DNA of 35,859 bases, taken from IMG/VR virus record IMGVR_UViG_3300043446_004321, positions 1 through 35,859 of that record, one strand, 5' to 3'. The stretch's first letter is position 1. Every line of letters starts with the position of its first letter. The stretch comes from a virus. A program made the translations under genes and the position numbers. This document shows positions 3,715-26,625 of this stretch, piece by piece. The notes below the pieces were generated by a model. That model had not been told where the DNA came from, did no database searches, and saw nothing but the letters and a program-made list of their open reading frames with translations.

Positions 3715-5390
3715 CAATCAATGTGTGCTATTTCTTGCAATCGCATGCGTTTGCTTTTGTATACTTTAACACATTCTGAACTGTTGGTAAAGTCCAATCG
3801 GCCCTTTCCCCACAATATCGGTTGATCTGCAAATGAAATAGCATGAGGCAATATCACATCAAGATAACGTCCATTGCCGGTGCCCAGTGTAGCAAAGGTT
3901 ATGTAGTCTTTGGCACCGCTTTTGAACACACGATAGTTGGCCACTAGGCCCAGAAACTCTACTTCTCCGGGTCGTCGAATTTCGGTACAGGCTGGAATAA
4001 ATCTGCCGCTGGTCCAGCGTCCAGTACGTGCCAGTTCTTCACACTCGCCACCTTCCAGGGGCGCATGCACAGCGCCGGCTAACTTGGCTTCTTGCCAGTA
4101 TACCCAGTGCGCATAACTGCCTTCACAATGCTTCAAACAGGCCTGCCAAAATTTCTTAGGATTGTGTGCTTTTTGATAGGCCAATGCCCAAATCAATCTG
4201 CCAAGATTGGTAGCATGGGCGCGGCAAAGACCAAAGTGGCTGAGTTCTCTCAGTGCGGCCAGCACACTGTCTCGTTTGGGATGGTCTCCGACCAACTGCA
4301 TGAACTCATAGATTTTTTCTTCGTTGCGTTTGGCAAATGCTCGTCGCCACATGTCTGCGGTGTACATGTCGCACTCCAAGATGTCGGCTATCATGGTTAT
4401 AGCATCATCTTCAAATACCACTGTGTCGTGTTGTATGGTATCAGCACTCCAATCCTGGAACGCACTGGCTCGCCTACGACCTTGCGTGGCCACTGGGCGT
4501 ATCAAGGCTGTGGCCAAGGTACAGTCACTACGGCTTTTTACTTTGAGTGCTCTAAACAAGCGTTTCATAGCCGGTGATTCGCCCTGAGTCACGCCCAGTA
4601 CATCACCACGACCCAGTAAGTCGCTGGTGGCTTCGTCGTACTCAGGATAGTCAGTTAGTGGTCGTTGATCAATTTCCCACAGTTGACTCAGGCCTCGATT
4701 GGCCAAGATATCAATTTTGAAATGCTCAAGATCTTCTGTTTCGTATTTGTCCAACAGGATTTGATTTTCACCGTTGATCAGGCTCCGGGGCACAGCACGA
4801 TCAAAAATCAGTATGCCGCCGCAATGTTTTGAGATACAACGTTTTTTGCCCATGAGTTTGGCCGCCACTCGTTCTGCTTCGGCTATTTCTTCTGGAGGCA
4901 ACACTTGATTAAATTCAAATCCGCGCCGGAGTGTGCCTTTGGCTCCTAATCTTTTTGCCGCTTCTCGTTTGGCGGATTTTTCTTTGTACATCACATAGTT
5001 TGACACTCGCGCACTTTGTCCGGGCCAGCGTCGGAATATGCGATTCATCACAGTTTCTTGTTGCCAGTGCGGGAAGTCCAAATCGATATCAGGAAGATCA
5101 TCGCGTTTGGGATTCATGAAACGTGCTATGGGAATGTTCTCTGCCACAGGATCTAAATCGCTGATGCCTAGTAGCCAGCACACCAGACTTGAGCCTGCTG
5201 ATCCTCTGGTGATGTGCGGTATGTCTGTGGTGAGATCCAGGATTTCTCTCACTCGTAAAAAATGCCGAGAAAAGTTTTGATCTCTTATTAGTTCTAGTTC
5301 TTCTGCCAGTCTGTCTGCGTAGCGTGGGTCTTGGGGTAGTGGTCTTCTAAATTGTTGTACAAGTTGTTCAAGTTCTCTATATCTGTCCAT
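3714..5390 (-). CDS. dnaE: Compact C-family DNA polymerase (DnaE-like core without PHP domain)
   Basis: A 558-residue protein matching the polymerase core of bacterial Pol III alpha. Landmarks in order are RGSAGSSLVCWLLGISDLDP (nucleotide-binding palm segment), PDIDLDF (two catalytic aspartates, like PDFDVDF in E. coli), HFKIDILANRGL (third catalytic aspartate, like KFDFLGL), TQGES-AMKRL, and a fingers region with DMWRRAFAKRNEEKI and SHFGLCRAHATNLGRL. A short OB-like C-terminus follows. It starts at the palm: the N-terminal PHP domain (about 270 residues in E. coli) and the C-terminal tau-binding region are missing, so it is about half the normal 1,100-1,200 residues. It could be a replicative or, like DnaE2, a translesion polymerase. 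Confidence 0.85.
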   Translation of the reverse strand: MDRYRELEQLVQQFRRPLPQDPRYADRLAEELELIRDQNFSRHFLRVREILDLTTDIPHITRGSAGSSLVCWLLGISDLDPVAENIPIARFMNPKRDDLPDIDLDFPHWQQETVMNRIFRRWPGQSARVSNYVMYKEKSAKREAAKRLGAKGTLRRGFEFNQVLPPEEIAEAERVAAKLMGKKRCISKHCGGILIFDRAVPRSLINGENQILLDKYETEDLEHFKIDILANRGLSQLWEIDQRPLTDYPEYDEATSDLLGRGDVLGVTQGESPAMKRLFRALKVKSRSDCTLATALIRPVATQGRRRASAFQDWSADTIQHDTVVFEDDAITMIADILECDMYTADMWRRAFAKRNEEKIYEFMQLVGDHPKRDSVLAALRELSHFGLCRAHATNLGRLIWALAYQKAHNPKKFWQACLKHCEGSYAHWVYWQEAKLAGAVHAPLEGGECEELARTGRWTSGRFIPACTEIRRPGEVEFLGLVANYRVFKSGAKDYITFATLGTGNGRYLDVILPHAISFADQPILWGKGRLDFTNSSECVKVYKSKRMRLQEIAHID

Positions 5391-5422
5391 CTGTTGCTGC
5401 CTTTGGTGTTGCTTTAGGCAGA

Positions 5423-5430
5423 TATTTATA
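5423..5430 (-). promoter_or_regulatory. T4 consensus late promoter TATAAATA
   Basis: A perfect TATAAATA on the minus strand, 33 bases upstream of the polymerase start codon. A 6-bp inverted repeat (CTGCCT/AGGCAG, 5397-5421) overlaps the predicted transcript start and would partly form in the leader. Confidence 0.7.
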
Positions 5431-5464
5431 GACTAGGATTTGACAGGATAAAGTTTTGGAGAGA

Positions 5465-6127
5465 CTATTTTGTTGCAAACAACTGATCCACAAAGTCCAG
5501 CAACAGCGTATGGTGTTGACCTCTGTGGTAACGGCCTCGCATCCAGGAATAACTGTCATACCAAAATTCTTCGCTTTCAGGATGACAACCAATCAAGCCA
5601 ATGTTGTTTTGTACAATAGCCATGGCATCGCCATTCATGTAAGTGGCCACAGTCTTAAACCTGTTGCGATCGCCTACCAAGGCACAGCCATCGTAAAAAA
5701 ACATTTTCCATGGCTCAACATTTCCGTAACGGTCCCGCCATAGCACTGGCAAGTTCTTGGCATGTGGGCGACGTGTGTCTGTTCCTGGACGACGAATATA
5801 TTGTACAGCATCTACACCGTCTAGGATGTTGAGATATGCACTTCCGGCCCAATATGCGCCCATGCATATACCCAGATATCTTCCGCCGCCAGCAACAAAT
5901 TCACGCACACGTTCGGCACTGTGTTTGAATAACTTGTCAAAGGTGTCAGCATCACCTATACCGCCGGGCACAGCAATCATGTCTACATCATCAAAGAAAA
6001 CATCTTCCAGGGGATTACGACCAAAGATTTTGAACTTGTAGTAGTCGCCCAGTGCTCGCATCAGCCCATTGCCACTTTGAACGCTACATCTGGGATCATG
6101 CAAGAATAGAGCAATTGTGGGTTTCAT
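5465..6127 (-). CDS. Class I glutamine-amidotransferase-like (BPL_N domain) protein
   Basis: A 220-residue cytoplasmic protein with a flavodoxin-like fold. It has the oxyanion loop PGGIGDAD, the nucleophile elbow GICMGAYWAG with its Cys, and GCHPESEE with the His and Glu expected of the triad. This arrangement resembles the biotin-protein-ligase N-terminal family (BPL_N) more than true glutamine amidotransferases. The substrate is unknown. It sits 3 bases downstream of a 51-residue gene and is probably cotranscribed with it. It could act as a small hydrolase on host metabolites or peptides; that is inference. Confidence 0.75.
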   Translation of the reverse strand: MKPTIALFLHDPRCSVQSGNGLMRALGDYYKFKIFGRNPLEDVFFDDVDMIAVPGGIGDADTFDKLFKHSAERVREFVAGGGRYLGICMGAYWAGSAYLNILDGVDAVQYIRRPGTDTRRPHAKNLPVLWRDRYGNVEPWKMFFYDGCALVGDRNRFKTVATYMNGDAMAIVQNNIGLIGCHPESEEFWYDSYSWMRGRYHRGQHHTLLLDFVDQLFATK

Positions 6128-21990: not shown

Positions 21991-22409
21991 TGAGATGTTC
22001 TATCTACTTTGGTGTTCGTTAACCCTGCCAACATTTGAAACTGGTCCCAGGCATCTTTTACTGCGGGACGATTTTCCAACTCTGAGTCGGGCAACACAGT
22101 TTCCAGCCAGTAGTAAGGCATGCGCCTGGGTTTCCATCCAAATTTTCGTGGTTGATGCAGTCGACCTGTTTCCCAAAGTTCGATACTTACGTCACGGAAC
22201 CGTTGTTCGTCTTCGTCAGTATAGTTACCCCACTCCATCTCTTGGCTGATAAATGAGCCGCCATTGTATCCAAGCCAAATAAACTTCCACTGATCGTCAT
22301 CTCGTGGATCAAAATCTGTGCGAGCCACAATGACCAAAACATCATCCATGTCCACATGACCTTCCACAAGGTCACGTACACAACGGCTGTAACTAAGTCC
22401 GATTTTCAT
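21987..22409 (-). CDS. Conserved phage protein, unknown function
   Basis: A 140-residue protein starting MKIGLSYSRCVRDLVEGHVD. The central WKFIWLGYNGG and the C-terminal RKFGWKPRRMPYYWLETV are distinctive aromatic-rich blocks, suggesting a compact alpha/beta fold. It is joined by ATGA overlaps to the genes before and after. The uniform coupling of this operon implies coordinated expression, probably early. Function unknown. Confidence 0.75.
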   Translation of the reverse strand: MKIGLSYSRCVRDLVEGHVDMDDVLVIVARTDFDPRDDDQWKFIWLGYNGGSFISQEMEWGNYTDEDEQRFRDVSIELWETGRLHQPRKFGWKPRRMPYYWLETVLPDSELENRPAVKDAWDQFQMLAGLTNTKVDRTSQ

Positions 22410-22540
22410 TTTGAAGGCTCATTTTTGGTGTCTACTTTCTTTTCAATAGGCGGAGGAAAGTATGGTTCAATCACATAGTGGGTGGCTGTCCACCAACCAA
22501 AGGCTGTGATCATGCCTGCTACAAATATTTCAAGTACCAT
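22406..22540 (-). CDS. 44-residue single-pass membrane protein
   Basis: A short gene with an N-terminal transmembrane helix (MVLEIFVAGMITAFGWWTATHY), then a Pro/Lys-rich tail (EPYFPPPIEKKV). Its ATG lies inside the end of the upstream gene, and its TGA overlaps the next ATG (ATGA). Short proteins of this shape with a GWW motif and PPP recur in aquatic phage genomes as I recall. Function unknown. Confidence 0.7.
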   Translation of the reverse strand: MVLEIFVAGMITAFGWWTATHYVIEPYFPPPIEKKVDTKNEPSK

Positions 22541-22757
22541 CGGTGTGCCCTAGTGTCGAGGGAGCATGATCCAATCTAGCACTGAATTCTTCATCATACA
22601 GATATGCGTCGTCATCATCAATAACCACGGCAAGATCACAGTGCCGCAAGGCATAGTCCACAAAGTTATGATCTGCATCATACACCCTAAAATAATAATT
22701 TCCGTCAAAGCAGTCAATGATATGACCACGGAGACCTTTGGCTGATTTGGGTTTCAA
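22530..22757 (-). CDS. Small acidic phage protein (TTG start)
   Basis: A 75-residue protein beginning with a TTG codon; an AGGAG site 8 bases upstream supports that start. TTGA overlaps the stop of the ligase-like fragment. The sequence (KGLRGHIIDCFDGNYYFRVYDADHNFVDYALRHCDL, read in parts) suggests a small SH3-like or beta domain, with an acidic DDDDAYLYDEE stretch. Function unknown. Confidence 0.65.
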   Translation of the reverse strand: MKPKSAKGLRGHIIDCFDGNYYFRVYDADHNFVDYALRHCDLAVVIDDDDAYLYDEEFSARLDHAPSTLGHTDGT

Positions 22758-22950
22758 ACTTTTTCTCCTGCTTCAAAGTCACGGAATCTCAAGAATCGTG
22801 GGAATCGGAGACTGTATGTCCCGTCTTGGTTTTGGGTGACTGCGTCGGCCTGGATTTCAACCAAGTGACCAAGTAACTGATCCCGATTGGTCCAATACTC
22901 ATCACGATCGCTATCGCTAAGGCCGCTACCAATAAAATTATTGTTTCCAT
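22754..22950 (-). pseudogene. Displaced second copy of the DNA-ligase C-terminus
   Basis: About 60 codons that encode GSGLSDSDRDEYW and TQNQDGTYSLRFPRFLRFRD, matching the last 55 residues of the ligase encoded 2-3 kb away. Nearly all codons differ at silent positions while the protein is conserved, so both copies were long kept as coding ligase ends. No good start codon lies in frame, and a promoter sits where the rest of the ligase gene would be. It is best read as the original 3' end of a ligase gene, left behind when a cassette inserted. Confidence 0.65.
22789..22950 (-). CDS. Possible overprinted 53-residue membrane protein
   Basis: An ATG at 22950, in a different frame from the ligase-like fragment, opens 53 codons coding a hydrophobic helix (METIILLVAALAIAIVMSIG) and a basic, polar tail. 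The ATG is 7 bases after a TACAAT -10 element, the same spacing as for the leaderless UvdE gene. No ribosome-binding site is seen. It may be a leaderless gene that arose by overprinting on the displaced ligase end, or a chance frame. Confidence 0.35.
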   Translation of the reverse strand: METIILLVAALAIAIVMSIGPIGISYLVTWLKSRPTQSPKTKTGHTVSDSHDS

Positions 22951-22956
22951 GAATAT

Positions 22957-22985
22957 ATTGTAGCAAATAGCGAAAAAATAGTCAA
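22957..22985 (-). promoter_or_regulatory. Sigma70 promoter with extended -10
   Basis: TTGACT, 17 bases, TACAAT, with TGC before the -10. It shares ATTTGCTA(T/C)AATA with the promoters at 27094-27122 and 27306-27334. It would drive the small-gene operon down to about 18.6 kb. Confidence 0.75.
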
Positions 22986-23008
22986 GAGAAAGCCCACCGA
23001 AGTGGGCT
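22983..23008 (-). terminator. Terminator after the putative injected protein gene
   Basis: AGCCCAC and GTGGGCT form a 7-bp stem with a stable TTCG loop on the minus strand, followed by TTTCTCTT. It ends the gene at 23018 and touches the -35 of the next promoter. Confidence 0.75.
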
Positions 23009-23017
23009 GTGTTTTGA

Positions 23018-24136
23018 TCATTTTTGGGTAAGTTTGTCTATTGTGGCCAGTGCGTCTGGGCTGGCTTCGGGCAACACGCCTTTTGGTCCGTGCTTGCCTA
23101 AATTGTGTTGTATTGATGCTTTACGAGCATTAGCAAATCCGCCGCCTACGGTGCCTTTGCGACCAGTTCTATCTGTTTTACGCAAGTCATCTGGTCCATG
23201 TTGAGTTCTGCTACCTAATCTATCGTAGTTGGGTGCTCGTCCTCCGTGATTACCACCACCACCGCGTAATGCTCTCATAGCATCGCCCATGTTCTTAAAT
23301 GTGCCTTCAACATCGCCACCGTGATAGCCATCTTTGTCTACAAACGACACAGTGATTTCGCCGGTGCGTAGATTGTGTTCTATCCTACCGTCAGCGTAGA
23401 AACCGCCTTCGCCATCATCATACCAATAAGTTTTTACTCCTGGTTCAGACTGGGTTTCGTCTGGATACCATCCGCTATAACTGCCACTCAGTGTATCCAA
23501 TGCTTTGTCAAAGTCGCCTTGGCCTTCCGCCACACCTTGTTCTTCCAATTGCCATTCAGAGTCTGAACTAACAACTTTGTAATGACCTGGCTTGACCATT
23601 TGAATTAAGTATTGGTCATCTTGGTCATCCGTGAGCATCAACGAATAATTAATTTTACTATAGGGTCTGTTCCAGCGTTTTAGTATAACACTGTCATCAC
23701 TGACACGAACAACATGGCCCATTTGTCCAGGAACTTTCCAGTCTACTTTGTTGCCGGCTTGTAATAATTGTTTTACAGATTGTAGAATCTTACTACGGTC
23801 ATCATTGCCCCAAGGATCATCACCTTTTTTCTTAGGTGGTGCAGGTGGCTTAAAATTTCCTCCTGGTGCAAACTCACGCAGTCCCTGTGCGTTAACAATC
23901 TTGTATGTGCCATGTGGGAATACAACGTTGTCAAACTTTGTGCCCATACCATGCTTTAATGTTACGCCTTCAGCATTGCTTGAACGAACTTCAAATGTCT
24001 CGCCTGGCAACAAGTCTAACATTCTTGGTGCTTGAATAATTTGCACGAGTTGACCTGGCTGTGCGATTTCAGAACCTTCCGCCACACCTTGTTGAGCGGC
24101 CTCTACTATATCGATCATTTCGCGTAGTGTTTTCAT
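23018..24136 (-). CDS. Putative capsid-targeted (injected) phage protein with VAE-G processing sites
   Basis: A 372-residue protein. Start MKTLREMIDIVEAAQQGVAEG resembles the T4 capsid-targeting sequence MKTYQEFIAEA, which prohead protease gp21 cuts after Glu at [I/L]-x-E. Here IVE-A (E12) and VAE-G (E20) are candidate sites. QGVAEG recurs at 200-205, which would release two mature parts, about 21-204 (Pro/Lys linker KPPAPPKKK and two SH3-like segments) and 205-372 (Gly/His/Arg-rich, basic). The basic C-terminus fits DNA binding in the head. The gene's late promoter is TAAATATCTGT directly before the ATG. Its function after injection is unknown. Confidence 0.6.
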   Translation of the reverse strand: MKTLREMIDIVEAAQQGVAEGSEIAQPGQLVQIIQAPRMLDLLPGETFEVRSSNAEGVTLKHGMGTKFDNVVFPHGTYKIVNAQGLREFAPGGNFKPPAPPKKKGDDPWGNDDRSKILQSVKQLLQAGNKVDWKVPGQMGHVVRVSDDSVILKRWNRPYSKINYSLMLTDDQDDQYLIQMVKPGHYKVVSSDSEWQLEEQGVAEGQGDFDKALDTLSGSYSGWYPDETQSEPGVKTYWYDDGEGGFYADGRIEHNLRTGEITVSFVDKDGYHGGDVEGTFKNMGDAMRALRGGGGNHGGRAPNYDRLGSRTQHGPDDLRKTDRTGRKGTVGGGFANARKASIQHNLGKHGPKGVLPEASPDALATIDKLTQK

Positions 24137-24141
24137 ACAGA

Positions 24142-24148
24142 TATTTAG
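24142..24148 (-). promoter_or_regulatory. T4-like late promoter CTAAATA (leaderless gene)
   Basis: With T4 spacing the transcript start is the A of the ATG at 24136. The string TAAATATCTG also occurs before the genes at 5390 and 6286. Confidence 0.6.
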
Positions 24149-24227
24149 TCCAAAATCATAAATAATAGTGTAGTTCGCGATACTGGAAATATCCAACTAC
24201 TCTATGATTGTAAAGGAATCACAGCAA

Positions 24228-24857
24228 ATGTATTTACACAACAAATATACCAATTGGTATTATAACATCATCGATCGTGCTAAAAATCGCACAATTGACG
24301 CTTACATCGAGCGGCATCATATTATACCCCGAAGTTTAGGCGGAAGCAACGAAGCATCTAACATTGTAAAACTCACCGGGAGAGAACACTTTATTTGTCA
24401 TTGGTTGCTTACTAAAATGACGCAAGGCGAGGCCCGAAGCAAAATGGTATATGCTCTTCGCAGAATGGAACATGTCAGTGATGATCATCAACATGGTCGT
24501 TATAGCACACGAATTACCAGCAAAGTGTTTGAGCGCAACAAAGCAGAATGGGCAAAAATACATAGTCAAACTATGACTGGTCGCACAAACTGGCGTAAAG
24601 GTGTCAAAACGGGTCCGCAAACGCAAGAACATCGACTCAAAAATAGTTTGGCAAACAAAGGCAAACGTTTAGGAGTTTCTCCGGGCAATAAAGGCAAGCC
24701 CCAACCCGAACATATCAAGGATAAAAAGAGAAAACCCAAACCATTGGCCACTTGTCCGCATTGCGGCAAAACCGGAGGCATATCTGCTATGACTCGCTGG
24801 CACTTTGATCGTTGCTTACTTGTCGTCCCGGAAACGCAGGAATCGGGGAAATCTTAG
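24228..24857 (+). CDS. HNH homing endonuclease with NUMOD-like repeats
   Basis: A 209-residue protein. The HNH core is IERHHIIPRSLGGSN, NIVKLTGREHFICHWLL (His-His, Asn, His). Next comes a basic middle with NUMOD3-like repeats (RTNWRKGVKTG, NSLANKGKRLGVS) for DNA binding, and a C-terminal zinc finger (CPHCGKTGG ... HFDRC). Start 24228 has AAAGGAA upstream; the ATG at 24204 lies before that site. It is the only plus-strand gene here and its last 42 bases overlap the ligase 3' end. Its position next to a duplicated ligase end suggests a mobile cassette. Confidence 0.85.
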   Translation: MYLHNKYTNWYYNIIDRAKNRTIDAYIERHHIIPRSLGGSNEASNIVKLTGREHFICHWLLTKMTQGEARSKMVYALRRMEHVSDDHQHGRYSTRITSKVFERNKAEWAKIHSQTMTGRTNWRKGVKTGPQTQEHRLKNSLANKGKRLGVSPGNKGKPQPEHIKDKKRKPKPLATCPHCGKTGGISAMTRWHFDRCLLVVPETQESGKS

Positions 24858-26171
24858 GCTATACCCACCATCTTGATTTTGAGTAATCGCATCACACATG
24901 ATCTCGGCAGTTTGTCCAATCACTTCATCTTTTGCTTGCCAAAACTCATTTCGTTGATCATCAGTTAGTCCGGAACCTACATTGACTCGGATATGACATC
25001 CGTGATCAGTTCCTTCGCAAATCAATGCTCCAAGGCGTCCTGTGTTTTTACCTGTGCCTTCTTCGACCCCAACAATAGTTAAATCATAACTTTTTGTAGG
25101 TTTCCATTTCATCCAGAAATCTGACCGTTTGCATTGATATGGAGCATCTACGGCTTTGATCATAATGCCCTCGTAGCCTTGGGCAACACAATCTTGGGCA
25201 TAGCGTTCCATGATGTCATGCCCTTCAGCAGTGTCCAAATCCACTTCCAGCCCCTTGACAATACGGATAAATGTATGCTCTTCGTCAATCTTTCCGCGGG
25301 CTCGGTCCAAAATATCAAACCGTTTGTACTGTTGAGCATTCCAATGACCACGTTGGAAGTCATCCAAGGGCATGATGTCAAAAATGTTGTAAATCATGCC
25401 AGAGGTTTCAGCATCTGATTTACGATGCGCCTGCTTCATGAGTTTCTGGAAACTCTCTCCTGTGACTTCTCCGTCCAATACAAAGCGACCACCTGAACCT
25501 AGATAGGCTTGAAACACTTCTCTGTGTCGCATGATGTCACGGGCAATTTCTGGAAAGTTTGCAAACTCTTTGCCATTGCGACTGAACAAGGACACATTCA
25601 TACCTTGCACAACTGCCAGCACCCGCACACCATCCAACTTGGGTTCAAGACGTTTGATGCCTGTGAGTTTCTTGGGTTGATCTGTGGAGTCCTGGGCCAG
25701 TTGACATGAAAACACAGGAATAGCCCATTCTGTGTTCTTTAAAATTTTGTTGAGAGTTTTTTCTGAAATACCACAGCGTAGATCTTTGATCAGCACACGG
25801 CGGCAAACCATGTTCCACTCGTCGTCGTTGAAATACTCTGCACATTCAGCAATGGCTTCTCTGGCACCGTTGCCTGTGACACTGCGTGTGCGAAGTGATT
25901 CCAGCAAAGCCCAGAACTTGGGCCAGTCATTGGGACGATCAGTGTGTTTCATCACTTCAAACACTTGTTTGATGTGGAAAGTGTAGAAAGGATTGTAGGC
26001 TTGATAACAGTTAAACAAAAAAGCCTGGGCATCTGATGAGCCAAGTCGGGCGGCCATCAGTGCCTTTTCAATGGTTTTTTCTTTGTGGATCCGGCTGTCA
26101 CTTGATTCCAGATCGCGTATCCAACCTGAACTCACGGTACCGCCAAACCTTTCTTCTGTATAGTCAATCAT
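24816..26171 (-). CDS. ATP-dependent DNA ligase (T4 gp30-like)
   Basis: A 451-residue ligase (T4 gp30 has 487). The active-site motif is EPKLDGVRVL (K-x-D-G, AMP-accepting lysine), then GRFVLDGEVTGESF (motif III), FDIMPLDDF, GYEGIMIKAVDAPY (motif IV), and WMKWKPTKSYDLTIVGVEEG (motif V), with a C-terminal OB fold ending TQNQDGGYSLRFPRFLRFRD. It seals nicks in replication and repair. The final 42 bases overlap the HNH gene on the other strand, and a second copy of its C-terminus lies at 22754-22950. Ten bases separate it from the upstream gene. Confidence 0.95.
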   Translation of the reverse strand: MIDYTEERFGGTVSSGWIRDLESSDSRIHKEKTIEKALMAARLGSSDAQAFLFNCYQAYNPFYTFHIKQVFEVMKHTDRPNDWPKFWALLESLRTRSVTGNGAREAIAECAEYFNDDEWNMVCRRVLIKDLRCGISEKTLNKILKNTEWAIPVFSCQLAQDSTDQPKKLTGIKRLEPKLDGVRVLAVVQGMNVSLFSRNGKEFANFPEIARDIMRHREVFQAYLGSGGRFVLDGEVTGESFQKLMKQAHRKSDAETSGMIYNIFDIMPLDDFQRGHWNAQQYKRFDILDRARGKIDEEHTFIRIVKGLEVDLDTAEGHDIMERYAQDCVAQGYEGIMIKAVDAPYQCKRSDFWMKWKPTKSYDLTIVGVEEGTGKNTGRLGALICEGTDHGCHIRVNVGSGLTDDQRNEFWQAKDEVIGQTAEIMCDAITQNQDGGYSLRFPRFLRFRDDK

Positions 26172-26181
26172 ATTTACTGGT

Positions 26182-26625
26182 TTACCATGAAGAGTTATAA
26201 AACACTTTTAAACCCAAGAACAACTCTGCTCGGGCGTTCTTGATGAATTCAAGATCTTGTTCTTTGTAGAAGTCATCTGCACCATCGCCAAAGAAGAAAC
26301 CTTGAGTGCTTGGCAACTGGCCGTGCGTTACTACACGTTCCAGTTCGTCTAGGTCCTCCCAAGTGAGTTCAAGTTCAACACCGTTGAACATTGCACCGTC
26401 ACCAAACGGACTGTCGGGCGCTGACCCAGGCCGGCCTTTGTTTTCCCACAGTCGTTCCATCCAGCCATGCAGGTTAGGATGCTTGCGCCAGTAAGCAAGT
26501 TCACGTGGCTTGACCACAGTGGGGTTTACACTTTCTTTGAGTTCTGGATCCCACTCGGCACCTTCGTAAAATTCATTTTGCTGACCTGCCTTGGCGGCAG
26601 TGTATGCATACATATCAAGACCCAC
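26182..26625 (-). CDS. MGLDMYAY-type conserved phage protein
   Basis: A 147-residue soluble acidic protein. The start is a GTG (26625) with AAGGAG spaced 6 bases upstream; translated, it begins MGLDMYAYTAAK, the same opening seen in small proteins of many phages as I recall. Blocks YWRKHPNLHGWMERLW and LTWEDLDELERVV are typical. It overlaps the 55-residue gene upstream by 11 bases. The family has no known function. Confidence 0.8.
   Translation of the reverse strand: MGLDMYAYTAAKAGQQNEFYEGAEWDPELKESVNPTVVKPRELAYWRKHPNLHGWMERLWENKGRPGSAPDSPFGDGAMFNGVELELTWEDLDELERVVTHGQLPSTQGFFFGDGADDFYKEQDLEFIKNARAELFLGLKVFYNSSW

Follow-up and report, generated by a model that had tools for sequence, protein, structure and literature searches.

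Organization of the DNA Ligase Locus

The analysis concerned the ATP-dependent DNA ligase gene of the virus record IMGVR_UViG_3300043446_004321 (IMG/VR) and the homing endonuclease gene (HEG) lying at its 3′ end. The window, i.e., the whole stretch of DNA analysed, comprises 35,859 bases and carries phage-family genes; related loci are referred to by L numbers. The ligase (451 aa) is encoded at 24816-26171 on the minus strand. It matched Pfam DNA_ligase_A_M and an OB domain as well as phrog_114 (E 5e-95), and in Pfam its nucleotidyltransferase domain covers residues 173-357 and its OB domain residues 371-448. A second copy of the C-terminal 52 residues was found in a fragment open reading frame (ORF) at 22754-22966 (-), in which positions 22933-22966 are not ligase sequence. 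In BLASTP, ligase residues 398-449 and the fragment were identical at 33 of 52 positions (63%, E 6e-24). The fragment scored just at the family cut-off of PF14743, the ligase OB-fold family, and matched the phrog_114 ATP-dependent DNA ligase with E 1.3e-11. Over codons 399-449, the DNA identity between the two tail copies was 59.5%, and 21 of the 33 identical residues were encoded by a different codon. These results bear out a preliminary description of the window, which had reported the duplicated ligase C-terminus and stated that the copies differ at most silent sites.

Between the two copies lie an HNH-type HEG and one cargo gene (Table 1). The placement of an HNH gene there, also part of that description, was confirmed by its phrog_655 match, but no family match supports the name "putative injected protein" given to the cargo product. 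The HNH gene is convergent with the ligase gene, the end of which it overlaps with its final 42 bp. Its ORF opens at 24204; the start is better placed at 24228, behind a Shine-Dalgarno sequence of its own. The HNH protein carries a C-terminal CPHC...HFDRC zinc-finger-like motif, and its matches to Pfam HNH_5 and HNH were below the cut-off. The gene lies outside any intron: the ligase is continuous without splicing, and an intron was rejected as there was no Rfam match in 22400-26400.

Table 1. Features of the ligase locus, with their positions in the window, strand and supporting evidence.
Feature	Position	Strand	Evidence
Ligase codons 1-352, native part of the chimera	25116-26171	-	groups with L003/L005/L010 (Shimodaira-Hasegawa-like approximate likelihood ratio test, SH-aLRT, 96); proteins 79-84% identical
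Ligase codons 353-451, foreign replacement tail with motif V and the OB domain	24816-25115	-	95% nucleotide identity to L262/L399; groups with DDK-type ligases
HNH homing endonuclease gene	24228-24857	+	phrog_655 homing endonuclease, E 3e-50; HNH motif HHIIPRSLGG..N with REH..CH
HEG leader: late-promoter-like CATAAATA, hairpin 1 (24170-24200), hairpin 2 around the Shine-Dalgarno sequence	24157-24227	+	covariation in 22 leaders
Cargo gene, 372 aa, MKTLRE...QGVAEG protein	23018-24136	-	no family match; L174 and L334 have the only relatives close to an HEG
Terminator-like hairpin behind the cargo gene	22991-23008	-	region has no more hairpins than expected by chance
Promoter-like TTGACT-17-TACAAT	22957-22985	-	10/12 consensus matches, best of 13 sites; consensus match only
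Remnant of the native ligase 3′ end, displaced, starting at codon 398/399	22754-22932	-	nucleotide identity to nine relatives; DNA alignments end at 22932
p75, native downstream gene	22530-22757	-	same order in L049, L082, L057

Origin of the Downstream Fragment

Eighty IMG/VR relatives of the ligase were fetched for comparison. The close relatives share the gene order p144, p179 and ligase, followed by subsets of p75, p44, p140, p152 and a Bax-inhibitor-like gene; the genes that follow the ligase there come after the fragment in the window. The ligase ends of the relatives resemble the fragment (e.g., ...LLGHLVEIQADAVTQNQDGTYSLRFPRFLRFRDFEAGEKV). At the DNA level, the remnant was 79-89% identical to the ligase ends of nine HEG-less relatives, whereas the same nine relatives were 57-63% identical to the window's own ligase tail. 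When dozens of relatives were aligned in DNA, the alignments broke off at position 22932, at the TT of codon 398, and the inserted and native sequences have at most these two bases in common at this junction. From the identity to the relatives' ends, the shared downstream genes and the common alignment stop, the fragment is identified as the displaced native ligase end.

This agrees with the earlier proposal that a cassette with a replacement 3′ end had displaced the original one. In HNH-less relatives, the counterpart of the fragment forms the in-frame C-terminus of the ligase, with the same genes behind it. With a ligase-tail profile, two copies were detected in the window but in no other of the 399 loci, be they HNH-less relatives or HEG-bearing ligase loci, and the fragment grouped with ligase tails, not with an unrelated protein.

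The start of p75 overlaps the stop codon of the remnant, and the p75 Shine-Dalgarno sequence lies inside the remnant. Keeping both is a plausible explanation of why the remnant has been retained. The remnant is headless and contains no stop codon; as a convincing start is lacking in its ligase frame, expression of a ligase piece from it is improbable. The promoter-like site is located directly before it, at the distal end of the cassette. Directly behind this site, an alternative-frame ORF of 53 residues, hydrophobic (METIILLVAALAIAIVMSIG...), begins with an ATG at 22950, occupies 22789-22950 (-) and overlaps the remnant. The open frame and the adjacent promoter-like site would suit a remnant kept as a working small gene, and the hydrophobic ORF would suit a small membrane protein. 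However, the ligase frame lacks a good start codon or Shine-Dalgarno sequence, the signals of p75 suffice to explain retention, and the intact L015 ligase gene contains a similar alternative frame as well. We consider either function quite improbable.

The Ligase as a Chimera

The tail of the intact ligase ends in RFRDDK, as in a different set of ligases (L229, L227, L334, L196, L249 and L181; the DDK set). Diagnostic residues matched the native set up to residue ~357 and the DDK set over residues 360-451. The breakpoint is sharp in comparison with the L262/L399 ligase, which was ~95% identical to the window in nucleotides from codon 353 and ~63% upstream of it. A DNA pattern search with the foreign tail matched only the L262/L399 contig. 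In a tree of codons 1-352, the window ligase was placed within a native clade of 12 rows (SH-aLRT 96). In a tree of codons 353-451, it grouped with L399 (86) in the DDK group (92), and the fragment fell among the native tails. Approximately unbiased (AU) tests rejected the grouping of the N-terminal part with L399 (p 0.0035) and the union of fragment and tail in one clade (p 0.0099). The placement of the fragment with the DDK group gave p 0.50, probably because the short native clade is star-like. The breakpoint and the incongruent trees showed that the ligase is a chimera of native codons 1-352 and foreign codons 353-451.

The foreign tract thus extends over ~22933-25115, and native codons 353-398 are missing. 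Its start had been assumed at the GSGL motif; it begins about 46 codons earlier, at codon ~353 (position ~25115). Because the breakpoint falls where the nucleotidyltransferase domain ends, the OB domain was exchanged as a whole. In an AlphaFold model of the chimera, the predicted local distance difference test score (pLDDT) of the exchanged domain was 80-93 at a protein mean of 77.9, and the best matches among solved structures were DNA ligases. The chimeric enzyme would be expected to work because the exchanged OB domain is complete.

The two tails are less than 2 kb apart, which could suggest a copying of the ligase 3′ end inside one genome, followed by divergence. Such an internal duplication is refuted by the incongruent trees, including the rejection of the two tails as one clade. 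The remnant is also far closer to the tails of other phages than to its supposed source (79-89% against 59.5% identity), and the ligase tail is 95% identical to that of L262. We give this explanation practically no weight.

A third type of ligase tail (RHKRFRGFEPGEKL) was observed in L010, L012, L015, L027, L043, L080 and L081. Its presence on differing N-terminal lineages suggests that ligase ends have been exchanged more widely.

Recurrence of Homing Endonuclease Genes at the Ligase 3′ End

Four further contigs or contig pairs (L229/L227, L334, L335 and L321) have convergent HEGs that overlap the ligase stop codon by 16-48 bp. All HEG-overlapped ligase tails end in DK, and no stop of the GEK type was overlapped. 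From their sequences, these HEGs were read as GIY-YIG-like, the SegE match of the L334 HEG being weak. The C-terminal region of the L229, L334 and L335 HEGs was 66-80% identical to the HNH protein of the window. In L334, a protein with the N-terminal motif of the cargo also follows, and the order ligase-HEG-cargo recurs.

The near-identical loci L008 and L015 match fully over >1 kb upstream and diverge through the ligase tail, which has been replaced, and beyond. A GIY-YIG HEG is present downstream of the ligase in L015 but not in L008, and an AU test rejected the two tails as sisters (p 0.0039). The same geometry as that of the HEGs at the ligase was seen at another gene in L484 (Sinorhizobium phage phiM7, 5004-6207), in which an HEG convergent with a late sigma factor gene overlaps its 3′ end by 32 bp.

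Displaced Ends at Other Genes

The flanks of 184 distinct HEGs were compared with each other by translated search. Four more displaced gene ends were found near HEGs: the 3′ end of a 5-aminolevulinate synthase (ALAS) gene, 3′ and 5′ ends of ahpD, and a capsid 3′ end. Relatives with an uninterrupted gene were available for two of the four (L376/L378 and L358). In L376/L378, an aminotransferase-family gene, read as ALAS from its sequence, is followed by a GIY-YIG HEG and then by the old tail (L376 2986-3877). The remnant and the DNA downstream of it were 97.8% identical to L402, an empty site with an uninterrupted gene. A genome contig scan with the L376 HEG gave one distant match. In L358 (6226-9554), ahpD is followed by an HNH HEG, a 642-aa cargo protein and the old ahpD tail. 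This old tail was 83-87% identical in DNA to L353, L360 and L372, whereas the new tail was at most 73% identical to any relative; the gene after the remnant comes directly after ahpD in L372.

L361 (2411-3784) is a mirror image, in which an old ahpD 5′ end and an HEG precede an ahpD gene whose 5′ end is new. In L152 (1382-6884), the last 20 residues of a protein that was read as capsid-like recur, with silent changes, ~4 kb downstream, beyond an HNH HEG and further genes.

L358 surfaced among 800 control ORFs, as the HEG search had missed its HNH gene. On inspection, as opposed to a formal test, the remaining control matches were tandem paralogues, repeats, HEG paralogues or the L152 cassette. 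Duplications in L104 were rejected as displaced ends because they are repeats, and the matches in L403, L321 and L427 because they are HEG or other paralogues. No displaced gene end was present in ten HEG neighbourhoods of cultured phages. In one cultured phage, Vibrio phage PVA8 (L487), two plus-strand genes, at least one of them HEG-like (937-1782 and 4995-5748), each overlap a small convergent ORF; these ORFs are 54% identical to each other and look like paralogues, not gene ends.

The HEG might instead be a passenger: the ligase end would then have been exchanged by phage recombination of the ordinary or illegitimate kind, and the donor tail would by chance have had an HEG beside it. In keeping with this, tails also differ among HEG-less relatives, and the RHKRFRGFEPGEKL tail is found on diverged ligases (L010, L012, L027, L043, L080 and L081). 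HEGs nevertheless recur at the same ligase 3′ end, and displaced ends recur beside HEGs of different families, whereas control matches were paralogues or repeats. We therefore regard a passenger role as unlikely. The recurrent HEG association and the parallel cases at other genes instead point to the HNH enzyme as the probable driver of the event.

Leader and Cargo of the Cassette

Hairpin 1 of the HEG leader has the form GTAGTT-CGC-GATA...TATC-C-AACTAC. The two-hairpin arrangement, located behind a late-promoter-like site, was found in 22 distinct leaders, before both HNH and GIY-YIG HEGs, including those in L015, L229, L334, L376, L403 and L439. Standard pairs occupied 95% of cells, and both stems covary, with 36 compensatory cells against 9.2 in shuffles. 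No Rfam match to the leader was obtained in the window region. Hairpins that sequester the Shine-Dalgarno sequence are known for HEGs of T4. The two-hairpin HEG leader may represent a new RNA family.

Proteins that start with MKT(L/F)R..I......QGVAEG are encoded divergently to an HEG in three phages (the window, 23018-24136; L174, 5007-5726; L334, 4546-4890). Other relatives of the cargo protein were not near HEGs.

Proposed Mechanism

We consider it highly probable that a homing endonuclease cassette invaded the DNA ligase gene, brought a foreign, diverged 3′ end and thereby restored the gene. In the proposed course of events, a ligase allele lacking the cassette would have been cleaved near codon 398 by the HNH endonuclease. 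Resection of the upstream break end would then have reached codon ~353, with repair templated by a donor phage that carried a DDK-type ligase and, next to it, the HEG. The downstream end would have been joined illegitimately, without extended homology (at most TT). The foreign tail should resist the enzyme, since its DNA is only ~60% identical to the native tail.

The preliminary description had likened the process to integrating elements that restore the 3′ end of a target gene, as integrases do at tRNA genes. The element does supply a substitute 3′ end here and the old end is displaced. In contrast to such elements, the new tail is strongly diverged (99 codons), 46 native codons are lost, the cassette proteins have no integrase-like or recombinase match, and no long direct repeat occurs at the two junctions. 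A site-specific integrating element can thus be practically dismissed. The junctions are staggered, one in homologous coding sequence upstream (codon 353) and one without homology downstream (codon 398/399), and this fits break-induced homing with co-conversion better. Co-conversion of flanks is the established signature of homing (PMC2988022).

Several observations weigh against this cassette-invasion model. The AU test rejected the tail as native only marginally (p 0.043). A donor with this HNH gene was not found, the L262/L399 contig ending inside the ligase, and the window is the only one of the 399 loci that keeps a remnant at the ligase. The record is also a single uncultivated contig without reads, which might suggest a chimeric assembly of two phages. 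However, native genes in native order lie on both sides, the ligase-HEG-cargo order recurs in L334, and similar scars exist in unrelated contigs. We hold an assembly artefact to be very improbable.

Comparison with Known Systems and Implications

The closest counterpart of the cassette model is found in fungal mitochondria, whose mobile-ORF elements carry a foreign C-terminus that replaces the resident one, the native end being left downstream (Glomus atp6, atp9, cox2 and nad3; Allomyces macrogynus atp6; PMC3630166). Both systems have an endonuclease ORF beside the gene (PMC3630166), an in-frame fusion of the resident gene to a foreign C-terminus (here with a breakpoint at codon 353 and incongruent trees), a diverged native C-terminus downstream that matches close relatives, and several genes that were hit independently. 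They differ in that the window is a phage replicon, not a mitochondrial genome, and in that the phage cassettes use HNH Mob-like or GIY-YIG enzymes, whereas the fungal ones are mainly LAGLIDADG. The HEG of the window is convergent with the ligase, whereas the fungal ones are fused or co-directional, and the phage cassettes have cargo genes and one 5′-end case (L361). The phage cassette appears to work like the fungal elements, but it was not classified with them because the replicon differs and cutting is only inferred here.

With the free-standing Mob and Seg HEGs of T4 (PMC2988022), the cassette has in common the family, a late-promoter-like and hairpin-regulated leader, a site beside a conserved gene and flank co-conversion. 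The T4 genes are described as inserted between genes, with alleles of the neighbour exchanged by homologous repair; the cassette of the window lies inside its target gene, carries a replacement end and leaves the old one. HEG islands and domain shuffling in phages are also similar: HEGs near conserved genes mark exchange boundaries, and common C-terminal domains occur on different nuclease domains (PMC10448857). Carried or displaced gene ends of phage HEGs are not described in the searched passages of PMC2988022 and PMC10448857. In the open-licence literature, only the fungal precedent for gene-end replacement was found, and one from phages may exist.

We consider it probable, with less assurance than for the ligase event itself, that phages carry recurrent homing cassettes that swap gene ends. 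Several families of nucleases would cut conserved coding sites and bring a diverged, cut-resistant 3′ or 5′ end with optional cargo, and the native end would be left as a scar. The principle of cutting a conserved gene and carrying a resistant replacement end is already known from fungal mitochondria, and the occurrence at ligase, ALAS, AhpD and capsid genes suggests a wider use. It would explain how HEGs invade conserved coding sequence without an intron or intein, as the missing gene end is brought along. The model predicts the cut sites, which should coincide with the first position of each remnant, and a simple signature, namely a gene end displaced next to an HEG, can be used to find more cassettes. 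If true, these cassettes would be a general route to chimeric phage proteins and to cargo insertion, and a natural equivalent of homing drives that include a recoded rescue.

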